Shown piece by piece: positions 1,320 through 43,196 of a DNA stretch of 45,122 nucleotides. A program made the translations under genes and the position numbers. The DNA comes from Acidobacteriota bacterium (GTDB lineage Bacteria > Acidobacteriota > JAAYUB01), in NCBI GenBank assembly GCA_012517875.1, contig JAAYUB010000062.1:1-45122 (forward strand). The letters are read 5' to 3'. The notes beneath the pieces were generated by a model, which saw only the letters and a list, made by a program, of their open reading frames with translations, was not told the DNA's origin and made no database searches. Position 1 is the stretch's first letter. Each line of letters begins with the position of its first letter.

Positions 1320-1333
1320 TCTATCGGCCTTAC

Positions 1334-6700: not shown

Positions 6701-7025
6701 CCCGTACTTCTTCCGCAAGTCGGGACTGGGCAAGCTCATCGGCACCCGCACCTGGGGCGGCCTCATCGGCCTGAGCGGCACGCCGCCGCTCATGGACAAC
6801 GGCGGCGTGCAGATCGCCGACTTCTCCTTCTACAATACCGACGGCGAGTGGGACGTCGAGGGGAAGGGCGTCTCGCCGGACATCGAGGTGGACGACCGGC
6901 CCGACCTGGTGGTGGCCGGCCACGATCCGTGCCTCGAGAAGGCCATCGAGGTGCTCATCGAGGAGCTGAAAACGTACAAACAGCCGAAGCTGCCCATCCG
7001 GCCGCCGAAGAACCCGGTCCGCTGA
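3708..7025 (+). CDS. Tricorn-type S41 protease, copy 1
   Basis: This secreted self-compartmentalising protease homologue is 1105 residues long. After a signal peptide (MRRIVWFTLAAVLCAAAFA) come two beta-propeller regions with WD40-like TolB blades (SPDGRSVAFTGDYDGNNDVF, WSPNGKWVAYFSDASGEY, WSPDSKWIAYDK). A Lys/Pro/Ala/Glu-rich linker follows (about 540-593), then the C1 helical domain, a PDZ domain (about 800-890) and the S41 catalytic core. The tricorn tetrad is present: Ser768-His769 in NSSHTY, Ser993 in YSGSGGDAFPYF, and Glu1051 in DVEGKGVSPDIEV. Gly occupies the position after the nucleophile, where the archaeal enzyme has Asp. The ATG at 3708 is preferred over 3669 because AGGAGG precedes it at normal spacing and the signal peptide then starts the protein. 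A perfect terminator follows. The second copy is at 39807. Confidence 0.93.
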   Translation: MRRIVWFTLAAVLCAAAFAATADTRLLHHPDIHGDQVVFTYAGDLWIVSSQGGTARKLTTYPGQERFPKFSPDGRSVAFTGDYDGNNDVFVIPAAGGEPRRLTYHPGDDGMLDWYPDGQAVLFRSGRASFWNRFNRLFKVSIDGGLPEILPLPTGELSSLNADGTKLAYNRMGTEFRTWKRYRGGMAPDIWIYDLVANTAEVIAPSDANDLFPMWQGDTIYFVSDRGAVKVQNLYAYDLKTKKVRALTDYKEYDVQWPGIGPGAIVYENGGYLYIMDLKTEKSRKLSVEVRGENLAARPVIKNVSDCIHGFGLSPTGVRALFEARGDIFTVPAKKGEIRNLTRTPGIRERDPAWSPNGKWVAYFSDASGEYEIYLRPADGKGEATQLTKGSRIWYQNLAWSPDSQKLLLSDAAVNLYYIDIEKKELVKVDHGQYEGFSNFITGVWSPDSKWIAYDKASANGLDSIYLYSLADNKSHKITGDMTDDSAPAWDPEGRYLYFVANREFNYSFSAIEFMHYHYNPGKIVAVTLQADTPSPFIPESDEEKVVEEKPKDGDKPAEGGKPADGEKTADAKPAEAKDGAAKADKDKPKTVEIKIDFEGLENRIIDLPVPDGNYVGIVPDKEQVFFASVGVPGSGAQGATLQVYDLKKRELKTVIGGVNGVSFSFDVKKILVQQGGGYAIIDAKPDQKPTDRLNLAEMKMTVDPRAEWPEIYTDAWRITRDFFYDPNMHGVDWAMIKERYGAMLPDVAHRDDLNYLIGEMIAELNSSHTYRGGGDYPEVPRLGVGLLGCDFELDAASGRYRIARIYPGQNWDPTRRGPLAQPGLKVKEGDYLLAVNGQPLKHPTNPYALLANTAGKAIPLTVNAQPTDEGATEIVVTPVANELMLRYRYWVDANRRKVEEATGGRVGYLHMAATAEPGVEGFSRDFYPQVRKDALIIDLRYNSGGHIPDMYMSRLDRKPLGLWATRYTDPTVIPAATHYGPKVCLANGYSGSGGDAFPYFFRKSGLGKLIGTRTWGGLIGLSGTPPLMDNGGVQIADFSFYNTDGEWDVEGKGVSPDIEVDDRPDLVVAGHDPCLEKAIEVLIEELKTYKQPKLPIRPPKNPVR

Positions 7026-8159: not shown

Positions 8160-9071
8160 ATGATGACAGTTCAGGGTGTGTTTTCGGTGCTGCCCACGCC
8201 GTTCACCCCCGACGATCGGGTGGATACGGACAGCCTCAAACGGGTGGTGGAACTGTACCTGGCCGCGGGCGTGAACGGCCTCACCATCCTCGGCGTGACC
8301 AGCGAAGCGGTCAAGCTCACCGACGCCGAGCGGCGCCTGGTCCAGGACACGGTGCTGGCTCACACCGCCGGCCGCGTACCGGTGGTGGCAGGCGCCACGG
8401 CCGCCGGCACGGCCGCCGCCGCGGACTACGCCCGGGCGGCGAAGGCCGCGGGCGCCGCGGCGGTCATGGTCAGCCCGCCGCGCATGCCCAAGCTGAACTC
8501 GGAGACCGTCCTGCGCCACTACCGGGAACTGGCGGCGGCGGTGGAGATCCCCATCGTGCTCCAGGACTACCCGCCGGTTTCGGGTTATACCATGGAGCCG
8601 GCGCTGCTGGCCCGCATCGCCCGCGAGGTGCCGGCGGTGCAGGCCATCAAGCTGGAGGATGCGCCCACGCCGTTCAAGACGGCCCGTATCCGCGAGCAGC
8701 TCCAGGGGCACCGGACGGCGATTCTCGGCGGTCTCGGCGGGATGTATCTCCTCGAGGAGCTCCTCGCCGGCGCCGACGGGGCCATGACCGGTTTCGCCTA
8801 TCCCGAGGTGCTGGTGGAGGTGGTCCGCCGCTTCCACGCCGGCCGGCGGACGGAGGCGGCCGACGCGTTCTACGCATTCGTGGCCCTGATGCGGTTTGAG
8901 TTCCAGGAGGGAATCGGACTGGCCATCCGCAAGGAGATCCTGCACCGGCGGGGCGCCATCGCCCACCCGGCGGTGCGGCCGCCCGGGGCGGCGCTGGACG
9001 CCGTCACCCGCAAGGCGTTGGACAGCGTGTTGCAATGGATCTGCACGAAACAGGGGGCCGCATGGATCTAG
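8160..9071 (+). CDS. DHDPS/N-acetylneuraminate lyase family aldolase
   Basis: The 303-residue class I aldolase is of the DapA/NanA type, a cytoplasmic TIM barrel using a Schiff-base lysine. Visible landmarks are FSVLPTPFTPDD at the start, GVTSEAVKLTDAER in the GTTGE loop (here GVTSE), Tyr137 in LQDYPP, Lys164 in QAIKLED, and GGLGGMYLLEELLAGADG. The start at 8160 (ATGATG) follows AAAGGA at normal spacing; the longer open frame upstream lies over the previous gene. Its 3' end overlaps the next gene by 10 bp. True dihydrodipicolinate synthases usually have GTTGE, so I favour a catabolic lyase or deaminase. The family includes the pyrroline-4-hydroxy-2-carboxylate deaminase of aerobic hydroxyproline catabolism, notable because a hydroxyproline-type glycyl radical enzyme lies 4 kb away. 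The substrate is not provable here. Confidence 0.85.
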   Translation: MMTVQGVFSVLPTPFTPDDRVDTDSLKRVVELYLAAGVNGLTILGVTSEAVKLTDAERRLVQDTVLAHTAGRVPVVAGATAAGTAAAADYARAAKAAGAAAVMVSPPRMPKLNSETVLRHYRELAAAVEIPIVLQDYPPVSGYTMEPALLARIAREVPAVQAIKLEDAPTPFKTARIREQLQGHRTAILGGLGGMYLLEELLAGADGAMTGFAYPEVLVEVVRRFHAGRRTEAADAFYAFVALMRFEFQEGIGLAIRKEILHRRGAIAHPAVRPPGAALDAVTRKALDSVLQWICTKQGAAWI

Positions 9072-9863: not shown

Positions 9864-10088
9864 ATGAACAGTGAATGGAGATAGGAGCTAAGAGATAGGG
9901 GGCAGGCTGTGTCGTGATCGTGAGACGTACTCGTAATTCGTACTCGTGATCGAGGCTCGTTCCCGTATTGCGGACATCGGACTTCGGACATCGGATATCG
10001 GGCTTGGGACCTGGATCATAGAATTCAGATCGTTGTACCGATCCACCGATTCACCCATTCACCCATTCACCCATCCACCGATTTACCG
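9864..10088 (+). repeat. Composite short-word array B (convergent gap)
   Basis: This array fills the convergent gap between the SDR and MFS genes. Order from the SDR side: GTGAATGGAGATAGGAGCTA with AAGAGATAGG; CGTGATCGTGAGACG and TCGTAAT/TCGTACT words; ATCGAGGCTCGTTCCCGTA; TCGGACA/TCGGACT/TCGGATA heptamers ending TCGGGCTTGGGACCTGG; then ATTCACCC heptamers to the MFS stop. On the minus strand the last block starts exactly at the MFS stop codon (TAA) as GGTGGATGGGTGAATGGG. It is the most complete example of the block order shared with arrays A, C, E, F and H. Confidence 0.88.
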
Positions 10089-11429
10089 CCTCCGTAATGT
10101 GCCGCCTGAGCGGGCATCCTCCCGCCACACCCACAGAGCGAGGGCCAGGGCGACTGCGCCGAGCGCAGCGAACATGAGCAGGCTCGCCTGGTAGGAGCGG
10201 GTGACGTCCCGCAGCCAGCCGTTGAGCAGAGGGAAGAGCGCCAGCCCGATGTTCTGGACCATCATGGTCAGGCCGAAGACGACTCCCGTGCGGCGCGGGT
10301 CCACTACCAGGGCCAGCGACGGCCAGAACGCCGCCGGCAGGAGCACAAACGCCGCCGCCAGGAGCAGCATCGGGCCGGCGGGATGGAGGTCGGTGAGCGC
10401 CATGAGCAGAAACGCGGGCACCTGAAGAAGCGGACCGGCTACGAGTAGGCCGCCGCGGCCGCCGCGGCGGTCCACCCAGGCGCCGGCCAGGGGGGCGAAC
10501 ACCATCGAGCTGAGGGTCAGCAGCGACGCCAGCCCGCCGGCGGTGCCGAACAGGTGGAGGAAGTTGGCACCGAGGCGAAGGGCGAAGCCGCCTTCGGCCG
10601 CGGCCACGCGGGGGATGTGCCACCGGTCGGCGAACAGGTCGGTGGCCAGCGCGGTGAAGGGGAAGATCGCCGAGTAGAAGGCCACGCACAGCAGCGTCAG
10701 CAGCCAGTACACGCGGGGCAGGGCGCGCAGGTTCCCCCAGGCGAAGCGCGCGCCGCCGCGAGTCGCCTCGAGCGCCCCGAGCCGTTCGGCGCGACGATCC
10801 AGGAGACAATACGCCAGGAACAGCAGCAGCGACAGCCCGCACAGCCCGGCGGTCACGGCGAGCGCCGGCTGGTATCCGCCCAATGAAGCGGCCAGCAGTT
10901 CACCCGAGTTGAAGCTCAGGATGCTGCCCAGCCGGCCGCAGGCGATCACGATGCCCATGGCCAGCGCCAGCTCCCGGCCGCGGAACCAGCGGGCGCCGAT
11001 GGTGAGGAGCACCACGTGCACCGACTCGGCGCCGCATCCGAACAGGAACCGGCCCGCGAGCATCAGGGGCAGCGACGGCGCCGCCGCGGCCAGGCCCGCG
11101 CCCGCGACCACCAGACCCAGGAACAGCAGCCCGGCGCGGCGGGGGCCCAGGCGGTCGATGGCCAGCCCCACCACCAGCAGCGACAGGATGGCGGCGCCCG
11201 AATAGAGGGTGTAGAAGGTGGCCACGGTGCTGCGGGCGGCGCCCAGCGTCTCCACCAGCGTCGGGGCGATGGCGCCGAAGATGTCGTAAGCGAAGGTGAT
11301 GCCCAGCGGCACCAGCGCCACGATGAAGAGCACGGCGAAGCGGTGCCGGCGGCTGGCCGGGTCGAGCCAGGCGCCCGCGGCGCCTGTGTTCTGGTGGCGG
11401 GGGTCGCTCGGCTGGGGTTCGGGTGTCAT
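10083..11429 (-). CDS. MFS transporter
   Basis: The 448-residue protein has about 12 hydrophobic segments and the layout of the major facilitator superfamily. Visible features include LAIDRLGPRRAGLLFLGLVV at the loop 2-3 position (MFS motif A region), AGRFLFGCGAESVHVVLLTI, and a repeat of the motif in the second half (AGAWVDRRGGRGGLLVAGPL). The first 25 residues are hydrophilic. I take the ATG at 11429 because the longer open frame upstream overlaps the GntR gene in another frame. It lies 46 bp downstream of the GntR gene on the same strand. A solute for the adjacent catabolic genes is a reasonable inference; direction and substrate cannot be read. A short-word array begins at its stop codon. 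Confidence 0.87.
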   Translation of the reverse strand: MTPEPQPSDPRHQNTGAAGAWLDPASRRHRFAVLFIVALVPLGITFAYDIFGAIAPTLVETLGAARSTVATFYTLYSGAAILSLLVVGLAIDRLGPRRAGLLFLGLVVAGAGLAAAAPSLPLMLAGRFLFGCGAESVHVVLLTIGARWFRGRELALAMGIVIACGRLGSILSFNSGELLAASLGGYQPALAVTAGLCGLSLLLFLAYCLLDRRAERLGALEATRGGARFAWGNLRALPRVYWLLTLLCVAFYSAIFPFTALATDLFADRWHIPRVAAAEGGFALRLGANFLHLFGTAGGLASLLTLSSMVFAPLAGAWVDRRGGRGGLLVAGPLLQVPAFLLMALTDLHPAGPMLLLAAAFVLLPAAFWPSLALVVDPRRTGVVFGLTMMVQNIGLALFPLLNGWLRDVTRSYQASLLMFAALGAVALALALWVWREDARSGGTLRRR

Positions 11430-16086: not shown

Positions 16087-19000
16087 ATGTCAGCGATCGC
16101 CCGTTCCACCCGGTTTTTTTGTGGGACTCATCCGTTTATGAGCAGCGCCACGCCGACGCATCTCGCGGCGCTGGCCGTCGCGCTGTGCGCGGCCGCGCTG
16201 CTGCTGACCACTCCGGCCAGCGCCCAGACCGCCGACCTGTTCTTCTCCGAGTATATCGAGGGGAGCAGCAACAACAAGGCGCTGGAGATCTACAACGGCA
16301 CCGGCGCCGCGGTGGACCTGGCGGCCGGCCAGTACGTCGTCCAGATGTACTTCAACGGGAGTGCCACCGCCGGCCTGACCATCACCCTGAGCGGCACCGT
16401 GGCCGCCGGCGACGTGTGGGTCGTGGCCCACTCTTCGGCCAATGCGACCATTTTGGCCCAAGCCGACCAGACGAACGGCTCCGGCTGGTACAACGGCGAC
16501 GACGCCGTGGTCCTGCGCAAAGGCGGCACCGGCGGCACCATCGTCGACGTGATCGGCCAGGTCGGATACGACCCGGGCTCCGAATGGGGTTCCGGACTCA
16601 CCTCCACCGCCGACAACACCTTGCGCCGCATGGCCTCGGTGTGCGCCGGCGACACGGACGGCTCCAACGCCTTCGACCCCGGTGCGGAGTGGGACGGCTA
16701 TGCCACCGACACTTTCGACGGCCTGGGCAGCCACACCGCCGACTGCCGCGCGCCGAAAATCAATGAGTTTTCAGCCAGCACTGCCGGCGTGGATGTGGAG
16801 TTCGTCGAGATCTTCGCCATCCCCAATACCGACTACTCAAACCTGACCATCCTCGAGATCGAAGGCGATTATTTCAGCACCGCAACCGGTATGGTGGACG
16901 AAGTGATTGCCGTGGGCACCACCGACGCCAACGGTTTCTATCTCGCCAACCTTATTGCCAATTCGCTGGAGAACGGCACGCTCACGCTGCTGCTGGTGGA
17001 AAATTTTACCGGCAGCGCCGGAAACGATCTGGACACGAACGACGACGGCGTATTCGACAGCACGCCCTGGACCCAGATCGTGGACGCGGTGGCCGTCCAT
17101 GACGGCGGCGCTTCGGACCTGATGTACGGCGCGCCGGTTCTGGGCGTGTCATATGACGGGCTGCCCTTCGCCCCGGGCGGCGCGTCGCGCATTCCCGACG
17201 GCGCCGACACCGACACCGCCGCCGACTGGGTGCGCAACGACTTCGACTTGGCCGGCATCTCCGGCTATACCGGCACGCCGGTGTTCGGCGAGGCGTTCAA
17301 CACGCCCGGCGCCGCCAACGCCGCCGTGCCGCGCCCCCCGGTGATCAACGAATTTTCGGCCAGCACTGTCGGCACGGATGTGGAGTTCGTCGAGATCTTC
17401 GGCGCACCCAACACCGACTACTCCGCGCTGACCGTCCTGGAGATCGAAGGTGACTCCGGAAACGTGGGCGTGGTGGACGAAGTGATCGCCGTGGGCATCA
17501 CCGACGCCAACGGCTTTTATCTCGCCAACCTTATTGCCAATTCGCTGGAGAACGGCACGCTCACGCTGCTGCTGGTGGAAAATTTCACCGGCAGCGCCGG
17601 AAACGACCTGGACACGAACGATGACGGTGCCTTCGACACCACGCCCTGGACTCAGGTCGTCGACGCAGTCGCCGTCCACGACGGCGGCGCCACGGACGTG
17701 ACCTACGGCGTGCCGGCTTTGGGTGTGTCGTATGATGGTCTGCCCTACGCCCCCGGCGGCGCCTCGCGCATTCCCGACGGCACTGACACGGATACCACCG
17801 CCGACTGGGTGCGCAATGACTTTGACCTGGCCGGCATCACCGGTTACACCGGCACGCCGGTCGAGGGCGAAGCCTACAACACCCCCGGCGCCACCAACCG
17901 TCGGGTGCAGTACATGGTGATCAACGAGATCCACGCCGACCCGGACGCCGCCGCCGGCGACGCCAACGGGGACGGTACGGTGAACACCACCCAGGACGAG
18001 TTCGTGGAGATCGTCAATACGTCCCTGTCCGACAAAGACCTCTCCGGCTGGACCCTCTCTGACGCCACCGGTGTCCGACACGTCTTCCCCGCCGGGACCA
18101 CCGTGGCGGCCGGCTGCGCCGTTGTGGTGTTTGGCGGGGGGACGCCCATGGGCCTGTTCGGCGGCGCCGAGGTGCAGATCGCGTCCACCGGCGCGCTCGG
18201 TTTGAACAACGACGGCGACACGGTCACCCTGACCGACACCACGGCGGTGGAACAGGCCGTCGCCACGTACGGCGCCGAAGGCGGCGACAACCAGAGCCTG
18301 ACCCGGGATCCCGACATCACGGGCACTACGTGGGTGAAGCACACCGTGGCCACCGGCTCCGGCGGGACCCGCTTCTCGCCCGGTACGCCCATCGCCGGCG
18401 GCACCTTCGCCGGCTGCGTGATTGTCATCCCCGAGTACACCATCGCCCAGATCCAGGGCAACGGATTGACGTCGCCGTATCTGTACGACCTGGTCATGAC
18501 CCGCGGCAACATCGTCACCGCGCTGGACAGCAACGGCTTCTTCATGCAAACGCCTGACGGCTCCGACGACGGCGACGCCGACACCTCCGAGGGCATCTTT
18601 GTCTTCACCCTCACGGCGCCGACGGGCGTGGCGGTGGGCGACAACGTCGACGTTCAGGGCGTCGTGACGGAATACTACGATTTCACCGAGATCGGCACTC
18701 CGTCGCTCGCCCCCCTGGTCACGGTCAATTCCAGCGGCAACAGCCTGCCGGCAACGGTGGTTCTGGACGGCGCCACCCCCGTGGGCACCCAGCCGTGGCC
18801 GGCCATCGAGCTGGAGCGCTACGAGAGCATGCTGGTCGAGGTGACCGGCGCCCGCGCCACCAGCCCGTCCGACCAATACGGCGACGTGACCATGACGTCC
18901 GGCCCGAACCTGAAGTTCCGGGAACCCGGCATCGAGTATCCCGGCCTCGTCGGGCTGCCGGTGTATGACGGCAATCCGGAAGTATTCGACCTGGATCCCA

Positions 19001-22851: not shown

Positions 22852-22884
22852 TTCGGTTCAGCAACACCATCTGATCAACGCACC

Positions 22885-22918
22885 CGCCGGCTCCCCCTCG
22901 GGGGAGCCGGCGTTTTTT
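22885..22918 (+). terminator. Intrinsic terminator after giant secreted protein gene
   Basis: A 12-bp stem, CGCCGGCTCCCC (22885-22896) with GGGGAGCCGGCG (22901-22912), encloses the loop CTCG and is followed by six T residues. It lies 33 bp after the stop codon. Array C starts immediately after it. Confidence 0.93.
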
Positions 22919-22921
22919 CTG

Positions 22922-23216
22922 CCGGTGAATGGGTAAATGGGTGAAAAAGTGAATGGACCGGATTCGTACCTGTCACGGTGTTCGTGCTCGTAATCGTAAT
23001 TCGTAATCGTCATCGTGCTCGTAATCGAGGCTCGAGACTCGAGACTCGAGGCTGGAGGCTCGTTCCCAGCCACCGGGTTTCGCGGTTCGGGGTCCGGGGC
23101 TCGGCACTTGCCACCAAGGATCAACCATCAACTATCAACTATCAACTATCAACAATAGTCGGACCTGGGTTCTGGGCCCAGGATCACAGAATCCGATACT
23201 CATACCCATTCACCTG
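22922..23216 (+). repeat. Composite short-word array C
   Basis: Blocks in order: GGTGAATGGGTAAATGGGTG (heptamer GTGAATGG type); GTTCGTGCTCGTAATCG followed by TCGTAAT/CGTCAT words; six heptamers of TCGAGGC/TCGAGAC type ending GGCTCGTTCCC; a GGTTCGGGGTCCGGGGCTCGG-like block; five ATCAACT/ATCAACC heptamers (about 23123-23156); a GGACCTGGGTTCTGG block; and a final CCCATTCACC. The gap 22852-23357 holds no other gene I can support. This is the clearest example of strict 7-nt periodicity. Confidence 0.88.
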
Positions 23217-23357
23217 TTTGGGAAATTGTCCGGGCTGTTCAGTTCTCTCCTAGATCAAACACCGATGGTGTACAATCCCGACGATCCGCTTGCGCTTGTC
23301 CCGACTTTTTTCTACAGTATGGTCATCCAGCCGGAAATATCAGAGGAGGCTGTGACC

Positions 23358-24948: not shown

Positions 24949-27900
24949 ATGGTTCCATCTGCCCGTCTGCATCTTCTGCCCGCTGCCCGTTACGGCCTGG
25001 CTGCGGGCCTCATGCTGGTGGTCCTGGCGGCCGTGGCCGCCGCCGAGGCGCCGGTCGACCGGAACGACCAGTTCACCGCCTACATCGGCACGAACGCCTT
25101 CCAGTTCTCGCCGCTCCACCCCGGCGGGCTCGGCCAGGTACGGCTGTTCACCGTCCTGAGCCACCCCGACGCGGCGCGTGACCGCGACTTCGGCCGGACG
25201 TTCTGGCGGCTGCGGATCACGGGACCGGGCGCTTCCGAGCAGATGGTCCGCTACGCCCGGGGCGCGGTCTGGCTCGACGACCAGGGCGCCGCGTACGCCG
25301 AGTTCTACTGGGACGGCCGCGACACCGAGGGGAATCTGGTCCCGGCCGGCGAGTACCGTTATACGTTCCAGGCGCGATTCGTCTCGAACCGGCTCAAGCT
25401 GGCCCAGCGGCCGGCGATCGCCCGCATGACCGCCGGCTATGACGATATCGAAGCGGAGCCCGACGTCGAGGAGGCGTTCGCCTCCACCGGCCGCGTGGTG
25501 GTCAATTACGGGCTGGATGAGGAGGGTGCCGCCTACAACCGTGAAAGCCGTGTGGGAGGCGCCTGTGCCCTCCAGCAGAACACGCCGCTGGCGAGCGGTT
25601 TCGGCTACAACTTTTACTACGGCTCCACCCACAGCCACTCCAATTACTCCGACGGCGGACAGGACCCCGGCAATTGCGCATCCGGCAACGCGAACGGTTC
25701 CGGCGCCTTCGGCCCGGACCAGGTCTACGACTACGCCCGCAACGCGGCCGGGATGGACTACTGGATCATCACCGACCACAACCACCTCTTCGAGGAGGCG
25801 GTCACCACCAGCAACCCGCCCCTGACCGAGGCCAAGGTGAAGCAGCGCTACGCCTACGGCCTGGCCGCCGCCGCTTCCGCCACGGTGGACGGCACCTTCG
25901 TCGCCCTGTGGGGCCAGGAGTTCGGCGTGCTGACGAACTCCGACCAGGGGCACGTGATCGTCATCGAAAGCCCCAAGCTGTTCGGCTGGGACTCCTGCTC
26001 CTCCTGCACCGGGTCCACCCCCGAGTGCAGCGCCGGCAGCAACTGCTACTTCGACGTCTACGTGCCGAAGCGGTACGCCTACCTCACCCTCTACGCCCGC
26101 TCGGTGCAGTACCCGTCCGCCGCCGGTGCGCTGGGTATCCTGTGCCACCCCGACAGCGGCCACTTCGACGGTTTCGCCTACAACGCCGACGCCGACGCCG
26201 CGATGCAGGGCATCGCCGTCCGGAGCGGCCTGGCGTTCTCGACCTCCGTCTACTGCGACGACGCCAACGTCGGCAGCTCCGACTATTTCGCCCGCTGGAT
26301 GACCGCCCTGAACAAGGGCTTCCACGTGGCCCCCACGGCCGAGCAGGATTCCCACTGCAACAATCACGGCGTGGCCGTGCCCACTCGGACGGTCTACCTC
26401 ATCCCCAACTCGCTGGCGCCGGTGCTCACCCGGGCCAACCTGATGAACGCCCACAAGGCGCGCCACTTTTTCGCCACCGAGGATCCCAACCTGCAGCTGA
26501 TTTTCGGCACCGCCGACAACAGCCACATCATGGGCGACATCTTCACGGCCGGGACGTCGGTGGACCTGCGGGTCGCCGCCCTCGATCCCGACGGCGAGAG
26601 CACCTACGCCATCGAGATCTGGCGCGGCCAGATCGGCGGCGGCGTGCTGACCAGCGCCTACAAGAGCTACAGCAGCCAGTCCGCCGTGACGCTGACCGAC
26701 GCCCCGGGCACAGGCACGTGGTACTACTTCGTCCACGTCACCCAGGCGGACGGACATGACGCCTACTCGGCCCCCATGTGGATCACCTTCGGCGGTACGC
26801 CGCCCCCCACCTATTCCATCGCGGGCAACGCCGGCGCCGCCGGGGCCGCCGTCACCGCCGGCGGCGTGTCCGCCACGGCCGACGCGAGCGGCAATTACAC
26901 CCTCGCCGGCCTGGCGGCGGGTACGTACACCGTCACGCCGTCCAAGAGCGGCTGCACCTTCACGCCGGCGACGCTGAGCGTCACCGTGGGGCCGAGCGCC
27001 ACCGGCAAGAACTTCACCGCCGCTTGCGGCGGCGGCGACACGGCGCTCACCAGCGGCGTCACGTTATCGGGCCAGAGCGTGGCCAAGAGCGCCTGGAAAT
27101 ACTACTTCATCACCGTTCCGGCGGGGGCCACCCAGCTTGTCCTCAAGACCACGGGGGCCAGCGCCGATGTGGACATCTACTCGAAGTACAACGCCAAGCC
27201 CACCAGCTCCAGCTACGACTGCCGGCCCTACTCCTCGTCGGGCAACGAGACCTGCACCCATGCCAATCCATCCGCCGGCACCTGGTGGCTGGGCGTCTAC
27301 GGCTACGCCGCCGGAACCTTTGCCGTCACTGGCACTGTCACCGCCGGCGGGACGACCTACTCCATCGCGGGCAGCACCGGCACCGCCGGCGCCACCGTCA
27401 CCGCCGGCGGCGCCACGGCGGTGTCCGACGCCAGCGGCAACTACACCCTCGCCGGCCTGGCGGCGGGCACGTACACCGTCACGCCGTCCAAAAGCGGCTG
27501 CACCTTCACACCGGCGACGCTGAGCGTCACCGTGGGACCGAATGCCACCGGCAAGAACTTCACCGCCGCCTGCGGCGGCGGCGACACGGCGCTCGCCAGC
27601 GGCGTCACGCTGTCGGGCCAGAGTGTGGCCCAAGGGGCTTGGAAATACTATTTCATCACGGTGCCGGCGGGCGCCTCCGCGCTGGAATTCAAGACCACCG
27701 GCGCCTCCGGCGACGTCGACATCTACTCGAAGTACAGCACCAAGCCCACCAGCTCGAGCTACGACTGCCGGCCCTACACCTCGTCGGGCAACGAGACCTG
27801 CACCCACGCCAACCCGTCGGCGGGCACCTGGTGGCTGGGCGTCTATGGCTATGCGGCCGCCAGTTTTGCGGTGACTGCGACGGTGGCCGGCGGGACCGCC

Positions 27901-30320: not shown

Positions 30321-30420
30321 GGTTGATTGTTGATCGTGGATCGTGGATCATGGATCATGGATCATGGAAGATCACCCTTCTTCCAACAATCAACTATCAA
30401 CCATCAACTATCAACAGATT
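30321..30420. repeat. Composite short-word array D, with inverted ends, in the yfiT leader
   Basis: GTTGATTGTTG (30322-30332) and its exact reverse complement CAACAATCAAC (30384-30394) flank GATCGTG/GATCATG heptamers. The right arm continues as ATCAACT/ATCAACC heptamers that end five bases before the Shine-Dalgarno CGGAGGT of the next gene. The whole can fold as a long imperfect hairpin in the mRNA leader. Confidence 0.8.
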
Positions 30421-31009: not shown

Positions 31010-31139
31010 GTTGAGGTTTGATGGTTGATCATTGATGGTTCGTGCTAGTAATTCGTAATCGTAATTCGTAATCGTAATCGTAATCGTGCTCGCGGCTCGA
31101 TGTCCGAAGTCCGATTTCCGATATCCGATGCCCGACGCC
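31010..31139 (+). repeat. Composite short-word array E
   Basis: Blocks in order: GTTGAGGTTTGATGGTTGAT (about 31010-31036), GGTTCGTGCTAGTAATTCG, five or more TCGTAAT/CGTAAT words, GTGCTCGCGGCTCG, then TCCGAAG/TCCGATT/TCCGATA/TCCGATG heptamers. The order of the TCGTAAT block, a GCTCG-rich block and a CCGA-rich block is that of arrays B and H. The 784-bp gap 30967-31750 contains this array, a palindromic repeat at 31293, array F and no gene I can support. Confidence 0.85.
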
Positions 31140-31292
31140 TGAGATGCCGGCACATCGACTGCATCCGGTTACGCGCCCGGGCCCGTCAGGGACGGAATTC
31201 ATTGTGCCCACCCGGTCGGTTTCCGGGATGCCCGATGTCGCCCCGGCGGGGCTCTGGTGATTCGTTCAACCAACGTGCGCATCACCACTGGA

Positions 31293-31311
31293 CCAGGGGC
31301 TGCGCCCCTGG
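31293..31311. repeat. Palindromic hairpin CCAGGGGCTGCGCCCCTGG
   Basis: A perfect 8-bp stem, CCAGGGGC with GCCCCTGG, encloses the loop TGC. It is followed by GCTATTGCCTTCCGTCCC and TACGGGCCGGG, which resemble interspersed hairpin elements seen in several large bacterial genomes. There is no T-run, so it is not an intrinsic terminator. Element boundaries are unclear, perhaps 31220-31350. Confidence 0.5.
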
Positions 31312-31490
31312 CTATTGCCTTCCGTCCCTACGGGCCGGGCGCCTGACTCTATGCAGGTGATCGGTAACTGGGGACGTCAAATGGAATAATTTGTTATGGT
31401 TGATTGCTTATCATTTTTTTCAGCGATTCGGAGACGAGTCGGGCGTTGCTGAGATGTGGGACCCGGGTCGTGAGACATGGATCCGTTGGC

Positions 31491-31697
31491 CAGGGCCCGG
31501 AACCCAGGTTCCAGGTCCGAAATCCGATGTCCGAATTCCCATGTCCGATGTCCGCGTTTCGGGAACGAGCCTTGAGTCTCGATTACGATTGCGATCACGA
31601 TTACGAGTTCCGATCACGAATCACGAGCACGAACTCATAATTCGCAACCCTCAACTCTCACCGAATGAGAACGAGCCCCGAGCCTCGAACCTTGCTT
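31491..31697 (-). repeat. Composite short-word array F (inverted polarity)
   Basis: Read on the minus strand: GGTTCGAGGCTCGGGGCTCG with TTCTC; GTGAGAGTTGAGGGTTG; GAGTTCGTGCTCGTGATTCG and further CGTGAT/CGTAAT words; ATCGAGACTCAAGGCTCG with TTCCC; TCGGACA/TCGGATT heptamers; then GGACCTGGAACCTGGGTTCC. The block order matches B and H, but no minus-strand gene lies to its right, so its polarity relative to genes is the exception. It ends about 50 bp before valS. Confidence 0.85.
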
Positions 31698-35020: not shown

Positions 35021-35888
35021 GGCGCCCGTCTACCGGCCGCCCAGCGAGGCGGAATCGCTCATCCTGCCGGTGACCACCGGCTGCTCCTGGAACCGGTGCG
35101 CCTTCTGCGAGATGTACGCCGACCGGCGCTACGCGGTGACGCCGCTCGACGAAATCGACGCCTGGCTGGCCGCCGCCGCCCGGTCCGGCTGGCCGGTGCG
35201 CCGCGTCTTCCTCGCCGACGGCGACCCGCTGGCGGTCGACACGGACCACCTCCTGGCCGTTCTGGACCGGATCCGGACGCGCTTCCCGGTTCTGAACCGC
35301 ATCTCTGCATACGCTTCGCCCCGCAACCTCCGCGACAAGAGCGACGCCGAACTGGCCGCCCTGGCGGCGGCGGGGCTCGGGCTCGTCTACGCCGGCATCG
35401 AGTCGGGCGACGACGAGGTGCTGCGGCGGGTGCGCAAAGGGGAAAGCGCGGCGTCCACCATCGCAGCGCTGCGGCGGGCCCGTGCCGCCGGCCTGCGGGT
35501 TTCGGTCATGGTCATCAACGGGCTGGGCGGCAGCACCCTGAGCGCCGCCCACGCCGCCGGCTCGGCGGCGGTGGTGAGCGCCGTGGACCCTGAGTATGTC
35601 TCCACACTGGTTCTCGGCCTGCCCCCCGGCGGCCGCCGCTTCCGGGCCGCGTTCGGCGACGGCTTCGAACCGCTGGACGCGGCCGGGTTGCTGGCGGAAC
35701 TCGGCGCCTTCGTCGGGGCGGTGCACTGCCGCCGGGCCGTGTTCCGGTGCGACCACGCCTCGAATTTCCTGCCGCTGCGCGGGATTCTGAGCCGCGACCG
35801 CGACCGCCTGCTGGCGGAGATCACCGCCGGCCTGGCCGCCTTCCGCGACCTGCCGTTGTCGCAGATCCGCCCGCTGGACCAGTACTGA
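35013..35888 (+). CDS. Radical SAM protein with CX4CX2C cluster motif
   Basis: The 291-residue radical SAM enzyme has its cluster cysteines at Cys24, Cys29 and Cys32 (TTGCSWNRCAFCEMY), a CX4CX2C spacing instead of the usual CX3CX2C. The same spacing (GCSWNxCxFC) occurs in a widespread uncharacterised group with an Elp3/HemN-like core. Other core features are VFLADGDPLAVDTD, LNRISAYASPRNLRDKS, LGLVYAGIESGDDEVLRRVR and KGESAASTIAALRRARAAGL. The product is unknown. The ATG at 35013 overlaps the valS stop by 8 bp; ATG 34995 in the same frame is possible. Coupling to valS may be only positional. An array block begins directly after the stop codon. Confidence 0.85.
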   Translation: MGEAPVYRPPSEAESLILPVTTGCSWNRCAFCEMYADRRYAVTPLDEIDAWLAAAARSGWPVRRVFLADGDPLAVDTDHLLAVLDRIRTRFPVLNRISAYASPRNLRDKSDAELAALAAAGLGLVYAGIESGDDEVLRRVRKGESAASTIAALRRARAAGLRVSVMVINGLGGSTLSAAHAAGSAAVVSAVDPEYVSTLVLGLPPGGRRFRAAFGDGFEPLDAAGLLAELGAFVGAVHCRRAVFRCDHASNFLPLRGILSRDRDRLLAEITAGLAAFRDLPLSQIRPLDQY

Positions 35889-36140
35889 AATCGAGGCTCG
35901 TTCCGATTTGTTGAGAGTTGAACGTTGAGGGTTCGTGCTCGTGATTGTGATTGAATCGTTTGAAGGTTTGCAGGTTCTCCAGTTCGCAAGTTCCAGGTTC
36001 GCGGGTTGTGGGTCAGTTGATAGTTGATGGTTGGTAGATTGATGGCTGATGGTTGATCCGTCTCTCGCTTCATCGACTCGCCGCTTCACCGATTCACCGC
36101 TTCAGCGACTCACTCAGCCCGGGCTTCGAGTTTCGGCCTC
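35889..36140 (+). repeat. Composite short-word array G
   Basis: It starts one base after the radical SAM stop with ATCGAGGCTCGTTCC. Then come GTTGAGAGTTGAACGTTGAG with GGTTCGTGCTCGTGATTG; GTTTGAAGGTTTGCAGG and TTCGCAAGTTCCAGGTTCG; TTGATAGTTGATGG and related GGTTGAT/GGCTGAT heptamers; and TTCACCGATTCACCGCTTC. The 300-bp gap to the next gene holds nothing else I can identify. Confidence 0.85.
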
Positions 36141-37389: not shown

Positions 37390-39444
37390 ATGCGTGCAAC
37401 ACGGATCCGACTGATCCTCGGACTGACTGTCGCCGGTCTGGCGCTGCAGTTCGCGGCGGCCGACCCCGCCCCGCTCACTCCCCGGCGCATGTGGCAGCTG
37501 GCGCGACTGGCCGCGCCGGCGCTCTCGCCGGACGGCACGACGGCCGCCGTGGCGGTGACGCGTTTCGATCTCCAGCGGGATGCGGCCGACACCGACCTGT
37601 GGCTCGTGCCCACCGCCGGCGGCCCCGGCCGGAAGGTGGCCGCCGCAGCGGGCGCCGAGTCGGAACCGGCCTGGAGCCCCGACGGCCGCCGCCTCGCCTT
37701 CGTGGCCCAGCGCAAGGGGGACGAGGCGCCGCAGATCTACCTAGTGGAGCGAGGCAGGGACAAAGCGAAGCGGCTCACCCGCGTACCCACGGGCGTGTAC
37801 GGCATCCGCTGGTTCCCCGACTCCGCCCGGCTGGCCTTCGTCAGCCGGGTCTGGCCGGAGCCGGCCACCTGGGCGGAACAGGGCCGGCGCCTGATGGAGC
37901 GGAAGGAACGCAAGGTCAGTGCCCTCACCTACGACACCGCCCGCATGCGCTACTGGGACCACTGGATCGACGACCGCCAGGCCCACTTGTTCCAGGTGGC
38001 GATCACCGGCGGCGAACCGGTGGCGCTGACCGCGGGCACCGGTTTGGAGCTGCCCTACCGGGAAAACGGCGCCGCGAACTACGCCATCTCGCCGAAGGGG
38101 GACGAGATCGCCTTCACCGCCGACAGCTCGCCGCGTCCGGACCTGGATTCCAACCTGGACGTGTATCTGCTGCGGCTCGGTGAGCGGAGCGCCCGCAACC
38201 TCACCGCCGACAACACCCAGAGCGACTTCAATCCGGCCTTCAGCCCCGACGGCGCGAGCGTCGTCTTCGGCCGGCAGCTCATCAAGGGCTTCTATGGCGA
38301 CCGCACCCGGCTGATGCTCCACGACCGGGCGACGGGGACCAACCGGGAGCTGGCCCCGGGCTTCGACTATTCGTGCAACGACTGGCAATTCGCCCCCGAC
38401 GGCAAACGGCTCTTCTTCGTCGCCGACGAGCGCGGCCACATGCCCGTTTACGCCATGGAGCTGCCCGGCGGCGCCATGACCCGGCTGACGGCGGAAGGCT
38501 CCCACGGCGCGCTGGCGGTGGGGCCGGGCGGCGCGTCCCTGGTGGCGCTGCGCCAGGGCTTCAGCGAGCCGCCCACGCTGGTGCGCGTGGATGTCGCGGC
38601 GAAGACGTCCGACACGATCAGCACATTCAACGATGCGGTCCTGGCGGAGGTGCGCTGGGGCGAGGTGCGCTCCGTGACGTATGCCGGCGCCGGCGGCGCG
38701 CCGATCCAGATGTGGGTGGTGCTGCCGCCGGACTATCAACCGGGTCAGCGGCGGCCGCTGATGATGCTCATCCACGGCGGGCCTCACAACGCGATCACCG
38801 ACATGTTCCAGTGGCGCTGGAACGCCCAGGTGTTCGCCGGCTGGGGCTACGTCTGCGCCTGGCCCAACTTTCACGGCTCCAGCGGATTCGGCAACGACTT
38901 CACCGCGTCCATCCTGGGCAACTGGGCTGACCAACCGTACGAGGACGTGATGCGGGCCACCCAGTGGCTGGTGGATCAGGGGCTGGCGGATCCCGACCGG
39001 CTGGTGGCGGCCGGCGCCAGTTACGGCGGCTATCTTGCGGCCGTCGTGCTGGGACGGCCGAACCCGTACCGGGCGCTCGTCGCTCACGCGGCGGTTTACA
39101 ACCTCTACACCCAGTACGCCAGCGATTACGGGGCCGGTGAACGGGCCGACGCCAACCCGCATTTCTGGGTGGACGAATCGGTGCTGCGCCACACCTCGCC
39201 CCACCTGGCCGCCGGCAGCTTCCAGACACCGACGCTGGTGGTCCATGGCGAACGGGACCACCGCGTCTACCCGGGCAACGGCCTGGAGCTGTTCCAGACG
39301 CTGCAGACACGGGGCGTGCCGTCGCGCCTCATCTACTTCCCCGACGAAAATCACTGGGTGCTCAAGCCCAACAACTCGCTGTTCTGGTACGACGAGGTGC
39401 AGCGGTGGTTTGAGAAATGGTTACCAGTGAACAGTGACCAGTGA
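37390..39444 (+). CDS. Exported S9 family (prolyl oligopeptidase-type) peptidase
   Basis: The 684-residue serine peptidase has a signal peptide (about 1-24), an N-terminal TolB/WD40-like propeller (about 30-420; WSPDGRRLAFVAQRKGDE, FSPDGASVVFG) and a C-terminal alpha/beta hydrolase domain. The catalytic triad is Ser544 (AGASYGGYLAAVV), Asp623 (VHGERDHRVYPGN) and His655 (DENHWVLKP), the arrangement of acylaminoacyl-peptidase/DPP-type S9 enzymes. It probably trims oligopeptides in the periplasm and could process products of the tricorn proteases; that link is inference. GGAGG precedes the ATG. The last residues (LPVNSDQ) and the stop are encoded by GTGAACAGTGACCAGTGA, which belongs to the word array that follows, so the array reaches into the coding sequence. 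Confidence 0.92.
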   Translation: MRATRIRLILGLTVAGLALQFAAADPAPLTPRRMWQLARLAAPALSPDGTTAAVAVTRFDLQRDAADTDLWLVPTAGGPGRKVAAAAGAESEPAWSPDGRRLAFVAQRKGDEAPQIYLVERGRDKAKRLTRVPTGVYGIRWFPDSARLAFVSRVWPEPATWAEQGRRLMERKERKVSALTYDTARMRYWDHWIDDRQAHLFQVAITGGEPVALTAGTGLELPYRENGAANYAISPKGDEIAFTADSSPRPDLDSNLDVYLLRLGERSARNLTADNTQSDFNPAFSPDGASVVFGRQLIKGFYGDRTRLMLHDRATGTNRELAPGFDYSCNDWQFAPDGKRLFFVADERGHMPVYAMELPGGAMTRLTAEGSHGALAVGPGGASLVALRQGFSEPPTLVRVDVAAKTSDTISTFNDAVLAEVRWGEVRSVTYAGAGGAPIQMWVVLPPDYQPGQRRPLMMLIHGGPHNAITDMFQWRWNAQVFAGWGYVCAWPNFHGSSGFGNDFTASILGNWADQPYEDVMRATQWLVDQGLADPDRLVAAGASYGGYLAAVVLGRPNPYRALVAHAAVYNLYTQYASDYGAGERADANPHFWVDESVLRHTSPHLAAGSFQTPTLVVHGERDHRVYPGNGLELFQTLQTRGVPSRLIYFPDENHWVLKPNNSLFWYDEVQRWFEKWLPVNSDQ

Positions 39445-39770
39445 GGAGACAGGAGTTAACAGCTTCTGTTCATGCTCGTAATTCGTCGTCGTAATTCGTC
39501 GTCGTAATCGTTGTAATCGTGCTCGTCATCGAGGCTCGAGGCTTGAGACTCGTTCCCACGCGACGGACATCGGATGTCGGGTCTTGGGTCTCGGGCCTTG
39601 GTCGTGTCTCCCGTCTCCCGATTCACCCGCTCACCGATTCACCGTCCAAGCTGACCAAGAAAGAAAACAGGGAGCCGGGACCGCATCCCGCCTCCCTGAA
39701 CCTTCTGCAAACCTGCGAACCTGTGAACTTGCAAACCTTAAAACTTTCGAACCTGTGAACCAGAGATCCG
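39424..39770 (+). repeat. Composite short-word array H (convergent gap)
   Basis: Blocks from the S9 side: GTGAACAGTGACCAGTGAGG with AGACAGGAGTTAACAG, overlapping the S9 stop; TTCATGCTCGTAATTCGTCG and further TCGTAAT/TCGTCG words; ATCGAGGCTCGAGGC with TTGAGACTCGTTCCC; GACGGACATCGGATGTCGGG with TCTTGGGTCTCGGG; GATTCACCCGCTCACCG; and, after a plainer stretch, GCAAACCTGCGAACCTGTG with further 7-8-nt variants (about 39707-39760). The order matches array B. No terminator or gene is evident in 39445-39806. Confidence 0.88.
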
Positions 39771-39806: not shown

Positions 39807-42800
39807 CTACTTCGGCCAGTGCTTGTCCTGCTGGTAGTCCCGGTACGGCGGGTGCTCGTACTTTTTGGGCGGGTTCTTTTCCAGCTCCCTCAGCAGGTAC
39901 TCCACGCCACGCTCGAGCTGGGGATCGCGGCCGGCGCGGACGGCGGCCGGATCCTGGTCCACCTCGATGTCGGGGGCGATGCCGGTGTTCTCGCCGATCC
40001 ACTCGCCGGTCTCGCTCCAGAGCGCGGCGTCGGGGGCGGTGGCACGGCCGCCGTCCATGAGCACCGGCATGCCGCCGGCCCGCACCAGGCCGCCCCAGGT
40101 GCGCTTGCCGATGAGGGGGCCGATCCCCAGCTTCTTGAAGTAGTACGGCATGGCATCGCCGCCGGAGCCGGCATATTCGTTGACGAGCATCGCCTTGGGC
40201 CCGAACACGGCGCCGTACGGCATGACGTCGTTGACGCCCTCGCGTCCCGCGATGTAGTTCAGGAGCGGCCGGCGCAGGTAATCCACCACGTAGTCGGCCA
40301 GGGCGCCGCCGCCGTTGTAGCGCTCGTCGATGAGCACGGCCTGCTTGTCGAGCTGGGCGAAGAAGTAGCGGTTGAAGTAGGTGAAGCCGCCCATGAACGT
40401 GTCGGGCAGGTAGACGTAGGCGATCCGGCCGCCGGACATCTCGCCCACCTTGCGGCGGTTATCCTCGATCCAGGCGAAGTGGCGCAAGGCCGACTCGTCG
40501 GCCACGGGCACCACGGTGACCTCGCGCGCTCCGGTGCCGTCGGGGTTGGGCCCCACCTTGAGGGTGACCGATTTGCCGGCGGTGGCCTCAAGCAGGGCGT
40601 CCATGTCCTGGGGCGGCCGGAGGTCCACCCCGTTGACGGCCAGCAGATACTCGCCTGCCGTGACGCTCACACCCGGTTGGGCCAGCGGCGCCCGCAGCTG
40701 GGGGTTCCAGCTCTCGCCGGTGTAGACGCGGGCAAAGCGGTAACGTCCGTTTTCGATCGAATAGTCGGCGCCGAGCAGACCGCCCGGCACGCGCTTGACA
40801 TCGGGCGTGTCGCCGCCGCCCACGAAGAGGTGGCTCACGGTGAGTTCGCCCAGCATCTCGTTGAAGAGGTAGTTGAGGTCCCAGCGGCTGACCACGGCGT
40901 CGAGGAACGGCGCGTACCGCTTCTCGGCCCGCGCCAGATCGAGGCCGTGGTGCTGCGGGCTGTAGAAAAAGTCGCGCTCGCCGCGCCAGGTCTCACGGTA
41001 CATCTGCCGCCACTCCACCGGCGGATCCACCCAGACCTCCAGACGTTCCAGGTTCAGCCCGCCCTCGCCGGGCTTGCCCGGCATCATCGCCGGCAGGACG
41101 GACCAGCGGGGCCCCTGCCGCACCAGCGCCTTCTCGCCGGTGGCGGAGAGGGTGAAGAACGACACGCCGTCGAAGGCCTTCTCCTCCTTGCGCTTCTCCA
41201 GGTCGAAACGGTGGACGGTGGCGGCGCCGGGGCCCGGCTGGTACGGATCGAAAGCCGGCGCCTCCATCAGAAACAGGGCACCGGCCTTGCCGGCCGCCAG
41301 ACCCACGTAGTTGCGGGCCGGGACGGGCAGGGCCACGATCCGCAGGGTGATCCCCTCGATGTCAATCTCCACCTTCGGCGGTTCCGCGCCCGGTTTGCCG
41401 GGTGCGGCGCCCGGCTTGGCCGGTTCGCCCGGCTGCTCCGCCGGCTTGTCGGCACCGCCGGCCTTGGCGTCGCCGGCCGCCGATTTTTCCGCCACGGCGG
41501 GCTGGCCGTCCGGCTTGGCGCCGTCATTCTTTGCTTCGGCCGGTTTGTCCTCGACCACTTTCTCCTCGTCGCTCTCGGGCGCGAGCGGCGACGGCAGATC
41601 CTTCTTCAGGACCACCGCGTAGGCGCTGCTCGTGGCGAAACGGCCCAGCGCAGAGAGACCCTCGCCCTGGGTGGGGCCCATGTTGGTGGAGGCGACGAAG
41701 AAAAGGTACTTGCCGCTCTTGTCGAACACCGGGAACTGGGCGTAGCTCATGCCGTCGGTGATCTGGTAGTTCTTCCCGTCTTCGAGGCGGTGGACGAAGA
41801 TGGCGGCCAGCCGGTTGTCCAGGAGGCGGGAGTAGGCGATCCACCGGCTGTCGGGGGACCAGGCGGGTGTCTGTTCGTTGCGGCGGTTGTAAATCTTGTC
41901 GGTGTCCACCTTGACCGGCGTCGGGGCTGCCTGGTCCAGGTCCACGTACCAGACGTTCAGCCGCTTGTCGGTGAAGAGGATCTTCCTGTTGTCGGGCGAC
42001 CAGACGGGGTCGTAGAAAAACGACGGCGGCTCGCCCAGGGCTACTTTCCGCACAGGCGCGGTGCCCCGCTGGTCGGCGATGTGCAGGGCGTACTCGCCCG
42101 ACTCGTCGGAGAAATAGGCAACGCGGGCGCCGTCGGGGGACCAGGCCGGCGAGCGCTCGTGCACGCCGGGGGTGCGGGTCAGGTTGCGGATGTCCCCCTT
42201 GTCGGCGGGGACGGTGACGATCTCGCCGCGGGCCTCGAACACGGCCCGCACGCCCGTGGGCGAGAGGCCGGCGTTGCGGATCGCGCTCGCGGCCTTCACC
42301 CAGCGGGGCCGCACCTCCGGGAAGTCGCCCCGCAGAGTGATGGCCACCCGCTGGGAGCGCTCCGTGTTCAGGTCGTACAGGTGCAGGCCGCCGAACTGCT
42401 CGTAGACGATGGCGCCGGGGCCGGCGGAGGCGCTTTTGAAGTCGAAGCCCTTGTTCTCGATGACCTGGCGGACTTTGCGCGAAACGGTGTCATAGGCGAA
42501 CAGCGTGAACGGGCCGTTCCGGTCGGACAGAAAGTAGACCGTGTCGCCCACCCACATGGGATTGTGGTCGTTGGACTTGTCGCGCGGGATTTTTTCGCCG
42601 GCGAGAGTGTCGAGGCTGACCACCCGGATGTAGCTGGTGCGGCCGCCCCGGTAGCGCTTCCAGGCGCTGAAGGCCGGTGCGAGCGGTGTGTAGGCGATGC
42701 GCCGCCCGTCAGACGAGTAGCTTCCCGAATCCGCCTCGTAGATGGGGAGCCGGGTGGGGAAACCGCCTGTCGTCGGCACGGTGAAGAGCTGATCGGATCG

Positions 42801-43196
42801 GGCGAAACCGGCCCGGCCGGATCTGAACAGGATGGCGGTGCCGTCGGGTGTCCATCCCACCGCCAGATCCGCGTCCGGGTGGTAGGTGAGCCGTTTGGGC
42901 ACCCCGCCTTCGGCCGGGATGATGTAGATGTCCCAGTTGCCGTCATACTGGCCGGAGAAGGCGATGGATTTGCCGTCCGGCGAAAACTGGGGATCAAGTT
43001 CCATGCCGTCGCCCGTAGTGAGGCGGACGGCCTCACCGCCGCCGCGGGGTACCGACCAGAGGTCGCCGGCGTAGCTGAAGACGATGTGGGTGGCGTTGAC
43101 GGTCGGTGAGCGGAACAACTGCGGCGGGTCGGCCGCCGCCGCTGTCCAGAGTGCGGCCAGGCAGAGGGCCGCGAGCAGCATCAGGCGTTGGGACAT
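39807..43196 (-). CDS. Tricorn-type S41 protease, copy 2
   Basis: The 1129-residue exported paralogue of the protease at 3708 has the same order: signal peptide (MSQRLMLLAALCLAALWTAA), two propeller regions (FSPDGKSIAFSGQYDGNWDI, WSPDGARVAYFSDESGEYAL), a Lys/Pro/Ala-rich linker (about 537-610), C1, PDZ (LAQPGVSVTAGEYLLAVNG) and S41 core. The tetrad is Ser788-His789 (TVSHLFVGGGD), Ser1011 (EYAGSGGDAMPYYF) and Glu1069 (GENTGIAPDIEV). As in copy 1, Gly follows the nucleophile. It is clearly diverged from copy 1 in protein sequence, so the duplication is old. The ATG at 43196 is chosen because AAGGAG lies six bases upstream; an in-frame TTG at 43214 is the longer alternative. It is convergent with the S9 peptidase and divergent from the glycoside hydrolase-like gene. 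Confidence 0.94.
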   Translation of the reverse strand: MSQRLMLLAALCLAALWTAAAADPPQLFRSPTVNATHIVFSYAGDLWSVPRGGGEAVRLTTGDGMELDPQFSPDGKSIAFSGQYDGNWDIYIIPAEGGVPKRLTYHPDADLAVGWTPDGTAILFRSGRAGFARSDQLFTVPTTGGFPTRLPIYEADSGSYSSDGRRIAYTPLAPAFSAWKRYRGGRTSYIRVVSLDTLAGEKIPRDKSNDHNPMWVGDTVYFLSDRNGPFTLFAYDTVSRKVRQVIENKGFDFKSASAGPGAIVYEQFGGLHLYDLNTERSQRVAITLRGDFPEVRPRWVKAASAIRNAGLSPTGVRAVFEARGEIVTVPADKGDIRNLTRTPGVHERSPAWSPDGARVAYFSDESGEYALHIADQRGTAPVRKVALGEPPSFFYDPVWSPDNRKILFTDKRLNVWYVDLDQAAPTPVKVDTDKIYNRRNEQTPAWSPDSRWIAYSRLLDNRLAAIFVHRLEDGKNYQITDGMSYAQFPVFDKSGKYLFFVASTNMGPTQGEGLSALGRFATSSAYAVVLKKDLPSPLAPESDEEKVVEDKPAEAKNDGAKPDGQPAVAEKSAAGDAKAGGADKPAEQPGEPAKPGAAPGKPGAEPPKVEIDIEGITLRIVALPVPARNYVGLAAGKAGALFLMEAPAFDPYQPGPGAATVHRFDLEKRKEEKAFDGVSFFTLSATGEKALVRQGPRWSVLPAMMPGKPGEGGLNLERLEVWVDPPVEWRQMYRETWRGERDFFYSPQHHGLDLARAEKRYAPFLDAVVSRWDLNYLFNEMLGELTVSHLFVGGGDTPDVKRVPGGLLGADYSIENGRYRFARVYTGESWNPQLRAPLAQPGVSVTAGEYLLAVNGVDLRPPQDMDALLEATAGKSVTLKVGPNPDGTGAREVTVVPVADESALRHFAWIEDNRRKVGEMSGGRIAYVYLPDTFMGGFTYFNRYFFAQLDKQAVLIDERYNGGGALADYVVDYLRRPLLNYIAGREGVNDVMPYGAVFGPKAMLVNEYAGSGGDAMPYYFKKLGIGPLIGKRTWGGLVRAGGMPVLMDGGRATAPDAALWSETGEWIGENTGIAPDIEVDQDPAAVRAGRDPQLERGVEYLLRELEKNPPKKYEHPPYRDYQQDKHWPK

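Follow-up and report, generated by a model that had tools for sequence, protein, structure and literature searches.

Degenerate tandem arrays of units of 6-8 bp occur in 190 of the 1044 intergenic regions examined in this Acidobacteriota genome, i.e., in about one-fifth of the gaps, and most of them are oriented by a single rule, pointing away from the nearest gene edge at the starts of genes as well as at their stops. We lean towards reading them as degenerate array mosaics akin to the G-rich heptamers of Xanthomonas and Nostoc and to the cyanobacterial STRRs, grown by slippage, with purifying selection acting on their position and strand. The window, i.e., the whole stretch of 45,122 nucleotides analyzed here, corresponds to one of the 182 contigs that make up a 4.02-Mb MAG, assigned to the Acidobacteriota through its named congeners, the JAKQOW and JAGOHA MAGs.

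The gap between the genes at 37390-39444 and 39807-43196 of the window illustrates the organization of these mosaics. The gene on its left (an ORF at 37390-39444, plus strand) encodes a protein of the S9 prolyl-oligopeptidase family (Pfam Peptidase_S9, 2e-52) and ends in GTG AAC AGT GAC CAG TGA (39427-39444), that is, V N S D Q stop, with the stop codon (39442-39444) inside the array sequence GTGAACAGTGACCAGTGAGG. The preliminary description considered the VNSDQ codons to be array-derived, and both the sequence and the tails of the congeneric proteins bear this out: the protein ends in VNSDQ in this genome and in VNSEQ or VNSEQIGDRR in the congeners, each followed by a stop, and the tail varies along with the array copy number, whereas in the sister genus the tail is unrelated and array sequence is absent. 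Thus, the last five codons and the stop are array-derived, and protein C-termini are being rewritten by changes in repeat copy number. The left arm, on the plus strand, consists of module P (GTGAACA-type units, 39427-39446), which is the outermost one, holds the stop and exists in a six-unit version in the congener G002; module Q (GGAGATA-type units, GGAGACAGGAGTTAACAG, 39445-39462); module A (CGTAAT/CGTNNT(T) units, 39469-39529); module B (CGAGGCT/CGAGACT units, 39530-39557), the end of which is a recurrent junction of the GGCTCGTTCCC type, here GACTCGTTCCC; module C (CGGACAT units, 39564-39580); and a degenerate G-run block (CTGGGAC/CGGGGCT-like, 39579-39601) that, by its alignment with CTGGGTTCTGGGACCTGGG of G002, is a degenerate copy of module D. 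The polarity switches at module R (GGGAGAC units, 39604-39619), where the right arm begins on the minus strand; it continues with module N (GTGAATCG/GTGAGCGG units, family D3, 39620-39644), a stem-loop followed by TTTTCTTTC (39668-39698), conserved in the G002 and G001 sequences, and module G (GGTTCGCA-type units, 39700-39761), the arm of the convergent tricorn/S41 protease-like gene (39807-43196, minus strand). The module sentence of this gap is Q>A>B>C>R<N<.G<. The stem-loop is a possible terminator of the tricorn-like gene, located inside the arm of that gene; it was flagged by our own terminator scan and not by the consensus scanner, which found no terminator at this locus.

The genome-wide counts refer to 1.85 Mb (about 46% of the genome), picked in part for containing CGTAAT matches, in which a home-made codon-score script called 1462 genes (85% coding) with approximate start positions. 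Arrays were scored as 13 unit classes with periods of 6-8 bp, some of which are variants of each other, so that merging leaves 11 module types. All 13 classes form arrays above the block-shuffled background. Windows of period 7 number 5499, compared to 442 after shuffling, and periods 6 and 8 are strongly over-represented as well; the repeats are not exclusively heptamers. The CGTNNT pattern has many coding-frame look-alikes, with 188 matches in 0.26 Mb of intergenic sequence (19 when shuffled) and 295 in 1.58 Mb of coding sequence. The strand of an array ('>' or '<') was defined for each class; AATGACC was re-signed after its data were seen and so provides no independent support for polarity. 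For replication, we used 734 kb of congener loci, which had been chosen because they contain an array. Several of the tests below were picked after earlier results were seen, and MAG assembly could distort repeat counts.

The arrays point away from the nearest edge, rather than toward it, by 195:36 at the stops of convergent genes, 202:77 at tandem stops, 129:22 at tandem starts and 83:15 at divergent starts; the corresponding ratios in the congener loci are 315:62, 200:62, 120:23 and 59:29. Since one gap often contributes several arrays to these counts, the gap-level figures (47:3, 77:6 and 20:4 by gap majority) are safer. Polarity had at first been tied to gene 3' ends or transcript ends, a claim that fails at the start edges, both tandem and divergent, where the orientation is equally strict; because arrays also point away from start codons, the 3'-end rule is one half of a two-edge rule. 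Within tandem gene pairs, sense and antisense arrays are nearly equal in number (231:199). In gaps with both signs, '>' lies to the left of '<' in 951 of the 1026 opposite-sign pairs, and 89 of the 108 such gaps are fully ordered, with one reversed; sign transitions are inward in 118 cases and outward in 21, compared to 120:120 with permuted signs, and the inward order persists for arrays 500-2000 bp apart (55:0). The intergenic regions thus usually contain one inward polarity switch. A general skew of base composition at gene edges was rejected as the cause, given that array-free intergenic regions show no strand skew at their edges. The same holds for pure selection on start or stop codons: among the classes in which both strands lack both codons, the outward orientation persists at stop edges (21:2), the figure at start edges being 9:3 (p=0.15, not significant).

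Arrays starting 0-15 bp past a stop are almost uniformly oriented, with 55 pointing away and one toward (76:0 in the congener loci). The first array lies within 5 bp of the stop in 37 of 194 cases (19%, compared to 8.2% under random placement, a 2.3-fold enrichment, p=1.3e-6) and within 15 bp in 54 of 194 (17.7% under random placement, p=5e-4). Hence the genome-wide distances do show array starts concentrated near stops, as expected from the initial proposal that insertion or growth is targeted to gene 3' ends; the stop-proximal enrichment and the polarity in that proposal stand, but a rule specific to 3' ends does not. None of the 138 start edges, which are approximate given the home-made gene caller, has an array within 5 bp. 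Arrays are present in 52 of 164 convergent intergenic regions (32%), 90 of 608 tandem ones (15%) and 24 of 203 divergent ones (12%), the difference between convergent and divergent regions being significant (p=4e-6). Arrays that abut stops, avoid starts and are commonest between convergent genes fit tolerance as well as they fit targeting.

Stop codons inside array matches number 34 in the 1.85 Mb, with a few genes counted twice under overlapping unit classes, and all are of the 'away' orientation. The lack of toward-oriented stops is in part a matter of construction, because the other strand of the stop-bearing classes mostly contains no stops. In GTGAACA, GTGAATGG, GTTGATG and CGTAATT-type units, every frame of the away strand contains stops, and the outermost module belongs to a stop-bearing class at 103 of 146 stop edges compared to 54 of 98 start edges. 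Both observations would be expected if stop-bearing units were kept downstream of genes as a safeguard that terminates translation in all three frames. We regard this explanation as very improbable, however, in view of the equally strict polarity at start edges and its persistence at stop edges among the classes without stops or starts.

Other mosaics in the window are built similarly. Array A (1320-1447, minus strand) starts with an outer GGTGAGATAGGAGATAAGAG that includes the stop of the gene at 1445-3337 (minus strand), followed by CGTAAT units and the GGCTCGTTCCC junction; the stop is TGA (1447-1445), within ...CCGTGAGGTGAGATAGG. The position of this stop inside the array had been recognized from the start, but the label 'SMP-30-like' given to the gene is unconfirmed because Pfam yields only weak matches, to NHL and 3-keto-disaccharide hydrolase. 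Two further early readings proved correct: the stop of the MFS gene (10083-11429, minus strand), TAA at 10085-10083, begins a minus-strand array block and lies within GGTAAATCGGTGGATGGGTGAATGG, and a single base separates the stop of the radical SAM gene (35886-35888) from ATCGAGGCTCGTTCC, in a mosaic that occupies 35889-36113. The mosaic between the gene at 8160-9071 (plus strand) and the MFS gene (9866-10088, sentence Q>A>C>N<) carries P/Q/A/B/C on the plus strand and GTGAATGG units on the minus strand, the latter extending to the MFS stop. The remaining mosaics are N>A>B>T<D> (22930-23190, plus strand), located beyond a strong terminator hairpin with a T run (about 22885-22915); a short two-arm mosaic, GTTGATC ... 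ATCAACT (30322-30420); and the two-arm mosaic T>A>C<...D<C<B<A<T<B< (31010-31665).

The two arms of a gap share families no more often than shuffled arms do (0.344 vs 0.367 for the null, P 0.73), and the predicted folding of array RNA is no stronger than that of shuffled sequences (median z 0.25; -0.47 for array-free intergenic regions), which argues against a matched-hairpin or palindrome element. Predicted intrinsic terminators precede the arm in 6 cases (e.g., in the gap 22852-23264), lie inside it in 7 and follow it in 9; with no consistent position relative to the arm, a terminator or transcript-end role was rejected. There is no excess of terminators at array stops either (22 of 136, compared to 73 of 511 array-free stops). 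A search of the window against Rfam 15 at the gathering score yields 0 matches, so that a known structured RNA family was rejected as well. The role in the 3' UTR that the preliminary description suggested is therefore unsupported as a general one, given the unmatched arms, the ordinary RNA folding and the terminators found before, inside and after arrays.

These results bear also on the possibility that the orientation is functional at the RNA level, with the G-rich strand serving as punctuation in the 3' tails of messages and of antisense transcripts that leave via the gene start, where G-quadruplexes or protein-bound tails would pause the polymerase or protect RNA ends. Such a role would be compatible with the fact that the orientation puts the G-rich strand into any gene-leaving transcript, with the enrichment of G2-class motifs of four G-runs on the away strand of array-containing intergenic regions (489 vs 313 on the other strand; 589 vs 653 in array-free regions), and with the report that similar repeats in Xanthomonas undergo transcription and adopt G4 structures in vitro (PMC4692102). 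We nevertheless consider it unlikely: G3-class motifs number 27 vs 20, the commonest class, CGTAAT, contains no G-run at all, terminators vary in position and are not in excess, and folding does not exceed that of shuffled sequences. G3 tracts are found only in CTGGGAC and GGGAGAC units, in tandem GTGAATGG and in certain variants; they are missing from CGTAAT, CGAGACT and CGGACAT units.

The modules follow distinct order preferences (CGTAAT before CGAGGCT, 66:13; CGGACAT before CTGGGAC, 23:1; GGAGATA before CGTAAT, 15:0), and the junction GGCTCGTTCCC is present in 42 copies in the 1.85 Mb. Comparison of orthologous intergenic regions between species reveals arrays in both in 20 cases, in neither in 123, and discordance in 5, a count from which the gaps that selected the locus were dropped. 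The median length difference between orthologous gaps is 36 bp with arrays and 1 bp without; indels in array-containing regions include lengths of 6-8, 12-16 and 20-22 bp but none of 9 or 17-19 bp, whereas those in array-free regions are mostly of 1 bp. The content of arrays turns over by segmental duplication (gap 303) and replacement (gaps 1016, 47 and 116); gap 116 provides one convincing difference in occupancy, and the relative carries other repeats at that position. Recurrent sentences with conserved non-repeat junctions across gaps, e.g., Q>A>B>C>D>N<m<, suggest copying of modules between intergenic sites. These sentences, together with the excess of inward over outward adjacent pairs (81 vs 15), would also be compatible with a mobile composite element with an inward two-arm structure that was inserted in either direction and diversified later. 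We find this highly doubtful because the arms share families at chance level, the inward order holds at separations above 500 bp, the alignments inspected show neither a clean empty site nor a duplicated target, and Y1-transposase domains number 5 in this genome compared to 3 in the array-free sister genus. The latter comparison also led us to discard an expansion of Y1 transposases as the source of the arrays.

For the 30 genes that are flanked by an arm on each side, family sharing between the upstream and the downstream arm exceeds that of shuffled pairs (0.46 vs 0.30, P=0.018); such sharing would make the mRNA ends complementary, the alternative being local copying. In a congener, the ortholog of gap 590 (locus L287, about 739 bp) contains a broken frame resembling a Y1/IS200-type transposase (MSQSYAQILLHLVFA...) as well as GC-rich hairpins between pieces of arrays. 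Short GC-rich hairpins that resemble REP-type elements recur among arrays in the loci L116 (944-1474), L127 (2302-2677) and L215 (GGCCCGnnAGGGCC, CCAGGGGCnnAGCCCCTGG, CGCCCCAGCGGGGCG).

A search of 396 Acidobacteriota genomes yielded the CGTAAT 23-mer (with up to 1 mismatch) in no others than the three that belong to this genus, and arrays of CGGACNT and AACCTGYG are absent from the sister genus. Four loci labelled as Planctomycetota, Verrucomicrobiota or Lentisphaerae (L208, L244, L253 and L215) carry the mosaics of this genus. We rejected true spread to these phyla in favor of misbinning for three of them: L208 and L244 are probably misbinned because their flanks are orthologous to this genome, and L215, with the same module mosaic, is suspected to be. 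A CGTAAT-type 23-mer is found also in arrays of L191 (Thermoflexales), L203 (Planctomycetota) and L242 (PVC group), which are free of the other modules of this genus; in L191, a CGTCAAA array adjoins. Independent arrays of the GGACNT type (13 matches; control, 0) are present in contigs C24 and C27 of G029, from a distant Acidobacteriota family.

Intergenic heptamer repeats have been described from bacteria for a long time. The STRRs of heterocystous cyanobacteria are several families of degenerate heptamers scattered between genes; the mosaics resemble them in being dispersed intergenic 7-nt arrays of several families, and may resemble them in their units, and to our knowledge neither a polarity rule nor a module order has been described for STRRs. 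The closest known case appears to be that of the G-rich heptamers GGGNATC and GGGGA(C/T)T in Xanthomonas and Nostoc, which form intergenic arrays of one G-rich type with the same polarity rule, the G-rich strand being the coding one downstream of ORFs and the non-coding one upstream (Rehm et al. 2015, PMC4692102). These repeats are scarce in divergent gaps, may extend over a stop codon, are mostly shared by related species at corresponding gene pairs though with variable length, and contain a G3 tract in each 7-nt unit, with a preference for four units (PMC4692102). The mosaics analyzed here share with them the strand rule, the scarcity between divergent genes, the overlap with stops and the conserved sites with variable length. 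They differ in comprising 13 unit classes of 6-8 bp, most of them without G3 tracts, in being joined into ordered mosaics whose polarity switches inward once per gap, in being commonest between convergent genes and in belonging to a different phylum. Thus, one polarity law is obeyed by all but a minority of the arrays here and by an unrelated family, and its being common to unrelated units, including those without G-tracts or start and stop codons, narrows the cause to gene edges or the strand. The TAACTGA repeats of marine Beggiatoaceae, a single unit located mostly just upstream of starts in the forward orientation, are likewise abundant intergenic heptamer arrays (MacGregor 2015, PMC4679880), but the mosaics here avoid starts and abut stops; arrays of the TAACTGA type are abundant, intergenic and patchily distributed over phyla, with 7-nt-step indels in Cyanothece (PMC4679880). 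The part of the report on Borg tandem repeats that we consulted presents long units of about 18-21 nt in archaeal extrachromosomal elements, fast-evolving and both intergenic and genic, for which slippage is proposed and no edge polarity is described (PMC9879509). Unlike REP/REPIN sequences, the mosaics have neither a palindromic unit nor hairpin structure, as indicated by the unmatched arms and the folding results. The many families, the ordered mosaics and the extension of polarity to units without G-tracts are new relative to the open-access literature.

Under the slippage-and-selection reading that we favor, units would gain and lose copies by slipped-strand mispairing, as supported by the unit-sized indels, and module strings with conserved junctions would be copied between intergenic sites. 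Most classes have a G- or keto-rich strand, the 5' to 3' direction of which leads out of the gene and into the intergenic region; a transcript leaving the gene thus reads G-rich sequence and one entering it C/A-rich sequence. Purifying selection may then filter site and strand: mosaics would persist where no promoter is needed (convergent over tandem over divergent gaps), and the surviving strand would be the one least disturbing to the neighboring genes. At gene 3' ends, the outermost module may grow up to and over the old stop, which it can overrun because most of the outermost modules there have a stop-bearing away strand. No dedicated function would need to be assumed. The near-absolute polarity close to stops is more than one would readily expect of a passive filter and could point to targeted growth, and the conserved occupancy of sites could also mean a positive function. 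Directional marking, in which transcripts leaving a gene at either end read the same G-rich strand and entering ones its complement, the arrays being built or maintained so either through extension from gene edges by a polymerase or during repair, or by a strand-reading RNA-binding protein, seems to us decidedly unlikely.

The window also contains two 300-nt direct repeats (16892-17770 and 26809-27654, 89% identity) inside large ORFs, which are probably repeated protein domains. The genes at 3786-7025 (plus strand) and 39807-43196 (minus strand) resemble each other at the DNA level in inverted orientation over long stretches, the longest being 182 nt at 79%; given this similarity and the tricorn-like nature of the latter gene, they probably represent a divergent paralogue pair within one contig.
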